Source: Thermosynechococcus sp. HN-54 | Lineage (GTDB): Bacteria > Cyanobacteriota > Cyanobacteriia > Thermosynechococcales > Thermosynechococcaceae | Assembly: GCF_023650955.1 (NCBI RefSeq) | Contig: NZ_CP098039.1 | Span: forward strand, 682,001-746,000 | Length of the DNA stretch: 64,000 bases | Direction of reading: 5' to 3' | Shown here: positions 8,787 to 9,978 of the stretch, one piece after another | Position numbering within the stretch: position 1 is the stretch's first letter | Layout: each line of letters starts with the position of its first letter | The notes under the pieces: generated by a model | Seen by the model: the letters and a program-made list of their open reading frames with translations, nothing else | What the model was told of the DNA's origin: nothing | The model's database searches: none | Made by a program: the position numbers and the translations under genes

Positions 8787-8924
8787 TTAGGCGTAGGCCG
8801 TGTGCAATGCCCACCAAATCAGTGCGGCAATAAAGCCAAGAATCAAAACAGCAGAAATCGCGATCATGGCTGGGCTGTCGGCGCCATCAAACTTCATAAT
8901 GCCGCGATTAAAATCCGTGGCCAT
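8787..8924 (-). CDS. psb34: Psb34-like single-helix photosystem II protein
   Basis: A 45-residue ORF starting MATDFNRGIMKFDGADSP, followed by one hydrophobic helix (about 19-40) and ending HTAYA. The pattern resembles the HLIP-related protein Psb34, which binds CP47 in late photosystem II assembly intermediates of Thermosynechococcus; I recall the sequence as matching but could not search. On the minus strand GGAG lies 9 nt before the ATG, a good ribosome site. It ends 7 nt from the convergent SbcC-like stop. A CRP-type palindrome lies about 126 nt upstream. Confidence 0.75.
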   Translation of the reverse strand: MATDFNRGIMKFDGADSPAMIAISAVLILGFIAALIWWALHTAYA

Positions 8925-9237
8925 AGGAACAAACTCCAAGCACCATTGAATCCACAGTAACCAAATTAATTCTAGGCTGCTTTTCTGGCAGTGGGGTTAA
9001 GGATAACGACTTGTTACGATTTATAGCGCTCCCTAAAAACCCTCTTAAATGTGATCAATATCACAGCACCCCTAGGTGAGACAGGCAAAGGTAGAAGTAA
9101 GCCCACAGCCTAGACCACTTGTTGAAGTGTCACGTTTTCTAGCGCTCCTGCCCCAACTAAAGAAAAAGGCAGGGGGTATTGGGGTTTGCAAAGGAGAGAA
9201 TTGCTTGAAGGCTGTTGAAACACGGGGGATACATGGA
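8925..9237. other. Intergenic region between psb34-like and FHA genes
   Basis: A divergent intergenic region. It holds a perfect CRP-type palindrome (9050-9065). The frame of the FHA gene stays open upstream to GTG 9076, but the residues encoded there do not look like part of the FHA domain, so most of it is probably untranslated leader. No other gene seen. Confidence 0.5.
9050..9065. promoter_or_regulatory. Perfect CRP/SyCRP1-type binding site
   Basis: TGTGATCAATATCACA matches TGTGA-N6-TCACA, the consensus shared by E. coli CRP and cyanobacterial SyCRP1, with perfect 6-bp arms. It lies 126 nt from the psb34-like start and 173 nt from the FHA gene start, so it could act on either gene. Confidence 0.65.
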
Positions 9238-9978
9238 ATGAATAGCCTGCAACAAGAACGTCACGTCTTGATTTTGAATACCGTTGGTGGCCGGCGGGCA
9301 ATTGCGTTGGATGCAGCTGCCTACTCCATTGGGCGCGATGAGAGTAACGCCATTGTCATTGACTTTGAAACCGTTTCCCGCCAGCACGCCATTCTCCTGC
9401 GGGTGCCCGTCCCCGGCACCACTAGCTATCGCTATCGCCTTGTGGATGGCAATGCCAATGGTAAGCCCAGTACCAACGGCACCTTTGTCAATGGCAAGCG
9501 CATCACCAGTCATGAATTGCAGCATGGGGATGTGATTCTCTTTGGTCGCAAGGCCAAGGCCTCTTATCTGATGCTCTCAATGGCGGATACTGAGTTCAGC
9601 CAATATCTGCAATCCATTGCCTTCCAGAGTATTAAATCCGATTTGCGGGGTGCTAAGGAAACCTTGGTGGGCATGGAGTTGAGCGGTGAACTGCGGCGAG
9701 CCCCCAACCGTGAATTGGTAGTAGCGGCGGCGACCCAGTTACATAGTGAGCCAGAAGTGGCGAAGGAAACCTTGGCCGGCGAGAACGAAAGCCAGCCCAC
9801 CACCAATAACAAAGAAACCGTTCATGAAAAAGAGAGTCACGGATCAAAAACAGGGCTAGTTGCTCTAGGGGCGATTGCCCTTGTGGTTATTGCCATTATC
9901 GCAGGAGCAGTTTGGCGATCGGGGGTTTCTCCCAGTCAACCGCAGGGATCGCCGCCGGCCACTCAACCCCGAAATTAG
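9238..9978 (+). CDS. FHA-domain protein with C-terminal membrane helix
   Basis: 246 residues from ATG 9238. The FHA phosphothreonine-binding domain covers about 10-115, with GRD at 32-34, SRQH at 47-50 and STNGTFVNG near 77-85. A linker (about 125-200) follows. One transmembrane helix (about 206-227) anchors the protein, so the FHA domain should face the cytoplasm. ATG 9238 is preceded by CGGGGGA, 4-9 nt away; a GTG at 9076 in the same frame would add 54 non-domain residues. It would read out Ser/Thr kinase signalling at the membrane; the partner is unknown. Confidence 0.82.
   Translation: MNSLQQERHVLILNTVGGRRAIALDAAAYSIGRDESNAIVIDFETVSRQHAILLRVPVPGTTSYRYRLVDGNANGKPSTNGTFVNGKRITSHELQHGDVILFGRKAKASYLMLSMADTEFSQYLQSIAFQSIKSDLRGAKETLVGMELSGELRRAPNRELVVAAATQLHSEPEVAKETLAGENESQPTTNNKETVHEKESHGSKTGLVALGAIALVVIAIIAGAVWRSGVSPSQPQGSPPATQPRN

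Follow-up and report, generated by a model that had tools for sequence, protein, structure and literature searches.

The window, by which we mean the whole 64,000-nucleotide stretch of Thermosynechococcus sp. HN-54 DNA that was analysed, holds a gap at 8925-9237 that separates two divergently transcribed genes. On the left side is a short gene for which we adopt the name psb34, a name that comes from the label given in an earlier, sequence-only reading of this DNA; its product matches no Pfam or NCBIfam model. On the right side is a gene for a protein with a forkhead-associated (FHA) domain, whose C-terminus carries a hydrophobic stretch that, by eye, we take for a membrane anchor. The start of the FHA gene needs some care. 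A 300-aa open reading frame begins at a GTG codon at 9076, but the open frame ranges from 249 to 300 codons across the genus, and the alignment contains insertions and deletions before 9238, so the longer frame is best regarded as mechanical and the ATG at 9238 as the best, conserved start. Between the two genes stands a palindrome of the kind recognized by the cyclic AMP receptor protein (CRP), its last base 172 nt from that ATG. The features of the gap and its flanks are collected in Table 1.

Table 1. Genes and predicted regulatory features at the psb34-FHA gap, in window coordinates.
Feature	Position	Strand	Comment
psb34-like gene	8787..8924	-	Divergent neighbour; probably not a target, being without the site in the three genomes in which it is separated from FHA
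psb34-side block AATCGTAACAAGTCGTTATCC	9001..9021	-	Kept with one or two changes at psb34 where the palindrome is absent (L177, L178, L179, L180, L184)
CRP-type palindrome TGTGAT-CAAT-ATCACA, TGTGATCAATATCACA	9050..9065	.	Proposed operator of the FHA gene
TAGAAG, -10-like element inside conserved block CAAAGGTAGAAGTA	9092..9097	+	26 nt past the palindrome; predicted from sequence
FHA-domain protein gene, 246 aa	9238..9978	+	PF00498, 5.4e-19; start from genus alignment; proposed target

The palindrome has perfect 6-bp arms and is an exact match to the consensus TGTGAN6TCACA, just as the sequence-only reading had described it. It is the single instance of that pattern in the window, and shuffled versions of the window contain a mean of 0.03 (3 of 100 shuffles held one). 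From the shortness of the gap, the same reading had argued that a chance occurrence was improbable, and this argument is weak as it was stated, given that the genome as a whole shows no enrichment of the exact pattern: the 2.7 Mb contain two exact copies, against four of a control pattern read backwards, so that the mere occurrence of the palindrome is no evidence of function. When the fuller pattern TGTGATN4ATCACA is sought with up to one mismatch, it is commoner than the control in all 11 genus genomes, 82 against 30 when summed over genomes that are related and whose counts are thus not independent, and this excess suggests a small regulon. The one other exact palindrome of the genome, TGTGATGATGATCACA (L002 1501-1516; G000:C1:1601596-1601611), sits just 5′ of an open reading frame that is followed by one resembling polynucleotide phosphorylase (assigned by eye), and the form TGTGACGATGATCACA is present in at least five relatives.

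Conservation was among the checks that had been proposed for the site, and within the genus it is nearly complete. A search of 58 genomes for the FHA protein succeeded in 55, and the best 30 loci were used. An exact TGTGAN6TCACA stands 188-197 nt 5′ of the FHA start in all 11 genus genomes, our own included, which are close relatives and not 11 independent cases. Of the arm bases, 131 of 132 are conserved, with a single A to G change in L014, while the four-base spacer is free to vary (CAAT, CAGT, CAGC, CTAT). Across the upstream alignment 11 of the 12 arm columns are invariant, compared with 49 of the 232 other columns when gap columns are counted. Conserved arms about a free spacer in orthologous promoters are what is expected of a CRP-type operator. 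A functionless palindrome that arose by chance would suit the unremarkable exact count in the genome (two, not above the four of the control), but near-invariant arms with a variable spacer in 11 genomes, together with the return of the site before the FHA gene in other genera, make that explanation very improbable.

A site in a divergent gap could belong to either gene, and a natural rearrangement within the genus separates the two. Eight of the 11 genus genomes have psb34 and SbcC across the gap from FHA, and there the palindrome begins 137-198 nt before psb34. In the other three (L014, L015 and L018), which group together as a single clade in the FHA tree (support 100/99), psb34 is found elsewhere, adjoining SbcC, and the palindrome stands 5′ of FHA despite its absence. 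The promoter region of the separated psb34 is without the palindrome; the sole match at up to two mismatches in the 400 nt scanned has one mismatch and, in all three genomes, lies at about -372, inside an upstream open reading frame. The nearer block AATCGTAACAACTCGTTATC is retained in front of psb34 in these same three genomes. Because the site accompanies FHA and is missing from psb34 where the genes are apart, we conclude that it goes with FHA. On its minus strand, the psb34-side block of Table 1 reads TCGTAACAAG-TCGTTATCCT, a direct repeat whose period is 10 bp and which is seen in both the joined and the separate arrangements (five sequences), and which we take to resemble the RpaB-type HLR1 repeat, as would fit a light-controlled gene.

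A survey of psb34 itself points the same way. The gene was found in 46 of the 58 genomes, and 30 loci were used; among the 19 upstream regions from outside the genus, each of 400 nt, none has the site at one mismatch or fewer and a single one has it at two or fewer, at -396. It might still be supposed that, where the genes adjoin, the palindrome is a bidirectional operator of both psb34 and FHA, and that cAMP is by this route linked to photosystem II assembly, an arrangement that the proximity of psb34 in 8 of the 11 genomes would allow and with which a minus-strand TATAAA-like hexamer, found in the window 24 nt away from the palindrome, is consistent. The hexamer is, however, not retained in the alignment in L012, L013, L016, L019 and L020, and the separated psb34 keeps its nearer block yet not the site, its one near-match lying within an open reading frame, and so, with the 19 outside regions, we hold dual control to be improbable. 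On the separated-gene genomes and this survey we set psb34 aside as a target. The sequence-only reading had offered a link from CRP either to a photosystem II factor or to a phospho-signalling protein; the site stays with FHA, which favours the FHA half of that proposal, and the psb34 half is not supported. The rearrangement thus turns an ambiguous site in a divergent gap into a specific prediction, with CRP acting on FHA rather than on psb34.

Beyond the genus, the site recurs before the same gene in part of the family. We surveyed 45 FHA genes, 30 of them from the loci above and the other 15 from 14 additional stretches picked as paralogues or second copies. Among the 34 that lie outside the 11 genus genomes, 5 have the site within 350 nt at one mismatch or fewer and 8 at two or fewer. 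A subset of 20 family regions, from which 14 rows of paralogues, multi-domain genes and genes of other classes were left out, contains 5 and 7 respectively; the 14 rows left out contain none at one mismatch or fewer and one (L037) at two or fewer. In these 20 regions, 149 controls with permuted half-sites and gap lengths averaged 0.28 matches at one mismatch or fewer, against 5 for the motif; the only control to rival it, GTGAT spaced by 4, reads this very site in a shifted register, and no other control exceeded 3. Fifteen of the 20 family regions, some of them second copies, have no site at one mismatch or fewer, and several of those genomes do have CRP.

On the FHA tree, which has 42 rows after three long or multi-domain proteins (L039, L216, L220) were dropped, all 14 rows of a clade that spans four genera (support 93/90, not starred) have the site. 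One member of this clade, L022, departs from TGTGAN6TCACA at two positions but is a perfect GTGATN4ATCAC. The site is also found in L025, L034 and L217, while most other rows are without it, and as a label on the tree it needs four changes, a number that none of 500 shuffles equalled or bettered. L217 (G025:C8:11800-14300) is a second, divergent FHA copy in a relative with a genome of 8.1 Mb, and has an exact TGTGATGCAGATCACA upstream, at 245 nt from its start.

A second conserved island of the genus, CAAAGGTAGAAGTA, lies 3′ of the palindrome, and the TAGAAG within it may be the -10 element of the FHA promoter. Its spacing from the site is kept more widely than in the genus. When one hand-picked row was taken for each of 8 lineages, TAGAA at no more than one mismatch was found 26-27 nt from the end of the site in 6 of them (L010, L019, L023, L025, L034, and L217 as TGGAA); L022 has TAGGG there, with two mismatches, and L021 is without the block at this spacing. 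All 5-mers at offsets of 10-49 were searched alike in the data and in shuffles, and 1 of 300 shuffles reached six lineages. Scans of 8900-9260 for sigma-70 promoters and for terminators returned nothing, the promoter scan being one that needs a -35 consensus which CRP-dependent promoters may lack. If TAGAAG is the -10, the palindrome would be centred at about -46.5. In E. coli, CRP sites are usually centred at -41.5 or -61.5, so the spacing here would be in neither the class I nor the class II register and does not by itself assign a class.

Is there a protein in the cell to read such a site? The Crp-type helix-turn-helix (HTH_Crp_2) matches the genome in seven places, four of them over the cut-off, and these four are NtcA (L003, TIGR03697), a PtrA-like protein (L005, below the cut-off of that model) and two related CRP-type proteins. 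The better candidate, at G000:C1:1659988-1660680, combines a cyclic-nucleotide-binding domain (cNMP_binding, PF00027, 1.8e-23) with the Crp helix-turn-helix (PF13545, 3.8e-16), the pairing expected of the SyCRP1 family, and has a recognition helix of the RExxxR form, RETVTR, that is kept in all of 58 aligned rows. These rows comprise 30 loci from our genome set and 28 (L098-L125) of at least 79 in the named genome collection. Its GE and PRSTD, the phosphate-binding cassette of the GE...RS type, are likewise invariant in the 58 rows and include cAMP ligand residues. A CRP homologue, whose absence would have spoken against the earlier proposal, is thus present.

Orthologues of the candidate in the 10 other genus genomes are 93-98% identical; among the matches listed in the wider collection, three Thermosynechococcus records are 97-98% identical and a fourth 80%, and none of the matches listed (at least 79 loci) is from Synechocystis. 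One of the collection's records, titled Vibrio cholerae strain 35D (L132), falls among Arthrobacter matches at the same identity and may be contaminated or mislabelled. Of solved structures the best match to the candidate is 4ev0 (4.6e-29), with catabolite gene activator chains at about 1e-17; against the NCBIfam model of E. coli-type CRP (NF008732) it scores 83 bits, short of the cut-off of 266. All 17 genomes with a scored site have an orthologue of the candidate at 76% identity or more. In G021 and G026, both 87% complete, a relative of FHA is present without a site at one mismatch or fewer (G021 has a two-mismatch match), and there is no close CRP match.

The palindrome might instead be used by another member of the CRP/FNR family, whether NtcA, the PtrA-like protein or L006, the second CRP paralogue, and perhaps in a heterodimer, for all four proteins have a Crp-type helix-turn-helix over the cut-off and L006 shares 41% identity with the main candidate. 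The details of recognition argue otherwise. NtcA sites follow the consensus GTAN8TAC, and the palindrome of the window, like all 17 sites compared, reads GTGN8CAC; L005 has RVTMTR in its recognition helix, near the RVTVTR of NtcA; and in L006 the RETVTR of the main candidate is replaced by SAEEAR. In Synechocystis, SyCRP1 and SyCRP2 do form a complex (PMC13249358), a precedent for the heterodimer, but with these helices as they are we consider one of the other proteins a rather improbable reader of the site.

The genome also has two genes with class III nucleotide cyclase domains, one joined to a CHASE2 domain and the other to an FHA domain, and the catalytic residues of both appear intact, by eye, when read against the motifs of such cyclases. 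The second (L071 1357-2640, minus strand) encodes a 428-aa protein in which FHA and cyclase domains are combined, so that FHA and cyclic nucleotides meet in this genome a second time.

Taken together, the sequence comparisons argue, with a probability that we would put at roughly 0.74, that the palindrome is a genuine CRP-family operator which serves the rightward FHA promoter and most likely answers to the protein at G000:C1:1659988-1660680. When cAMP rises, a CRP dimer would bind at 9050-9065, just upstream of the FHA promoter, and the bound protein would alter transcription of the FHA gene, probably as an activator, and would in this way set the amount of a protein that reads phosphothreonine. 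Activation seems the more natural sign since the -10-like TAGAAG is downstream of the site and is not covered by it, an argument from position alone. SyCRP1 is reported to repress CO2-concentrating genes of Synechocystis at high inorganic carbon (PMC13249358), which makes repression of FHA by bound CRP a real alternative within the same reading, though the less likely one given where the site stands.

More tentatively, and at somewhat less than even odds, we suggest that a very small cAMP-CRP regulon is conserved in Thermosynechococcus and its family. The membrane-anchored FHA phosphothreonine reader would be its best preserved member and sigF another, and through this regulon cAMP might set how sensitive Ser/Thr phospho-signalling, and perhaps motility, would be. 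Other one-mismatch palindromes were seen in the genus. The form TGTGGTNNRGATCACA stands before sigF and after a UppP-like open reading frame (by eye) at L094 1265-1280 (G000:C1:570864-570879) and at L096 1239-1254; the sigF assignment is by NF005644 (405 bits, cut-off 261), and the form occurs in at least 9 of the 11 genus genomes and not in G010, adjacency to sigF being established in two. Another lies in a gap near a cysteine desulfurase-like frame (L089 1229-1244, by eye), and a further one, also in a gap, precedes a partial frame with no Pfam or NCBIfam match in its first 386 codons (L090 1277-1292); the sequences of both recur in several genus genomes.

How does this compare with CRP systems that are already described? 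The recognition helix of E. coli CRP follows the pattern RExxxR, as does the RETVTR of the candidate, while the distance from site to -10-like element is about 5 bp longer here than in an E. coli class II promoter. The palindrome itself is that of the E. coli CRP/CAP operators and is also the SyCRP1 consensus (PMC2633013). Among the closest described systems is that of SyCRP1 (sll1371) of Synechocystis sp. PCC 6803, which shares with the present one the consensus, a CRP-family regulator that carries a cyclic-nucleotide domain, and a further paralogue in the genome; its targets, as given in the text consulted of PMC13249358 and PMC9880817, are pilus and carbon-concentrating genes, none with an FHA domain, whereas here the target would be an FHA gene. 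The sequence-only reading did not know a connection of the kind it proposed to be described; on the photosystem side, a CRP link had already been predicted for reaction-centre genes, 14 of them in a set of 12 cyanobacterial genomes (PMC2633013). The same survey predicted 29 CRP sites (p < 0.01) in Thermosynechococcus elongatus BP-1, of the same or a near genus and with the same motif (PMC2633013, Xu and Su 2009); the main-text list of BP-1 genes does not contain tsl0063 (psb34), and FHA occurs nowhere in that main text, although the supplementary tables may list the site. Neither the main text of PMC2633013 nor the text consulted of PMC13249358, PMC9880817, PMC9458560 (on Psb34) and PMC10117731 gives an FHA gene among the targets of CRP. 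As far as this literature shows, then, the FHA gene would be a new target for a known kind of regulator, and the photosystem II angle falls away. Since most predicted cyanobacterial CRP targets are not common to several genomes (PMC2633013), a target that is held throughout a genus and recurs in other genera of its family would be a good entry point to what cAMP does in thermophilic cyanobacteria.
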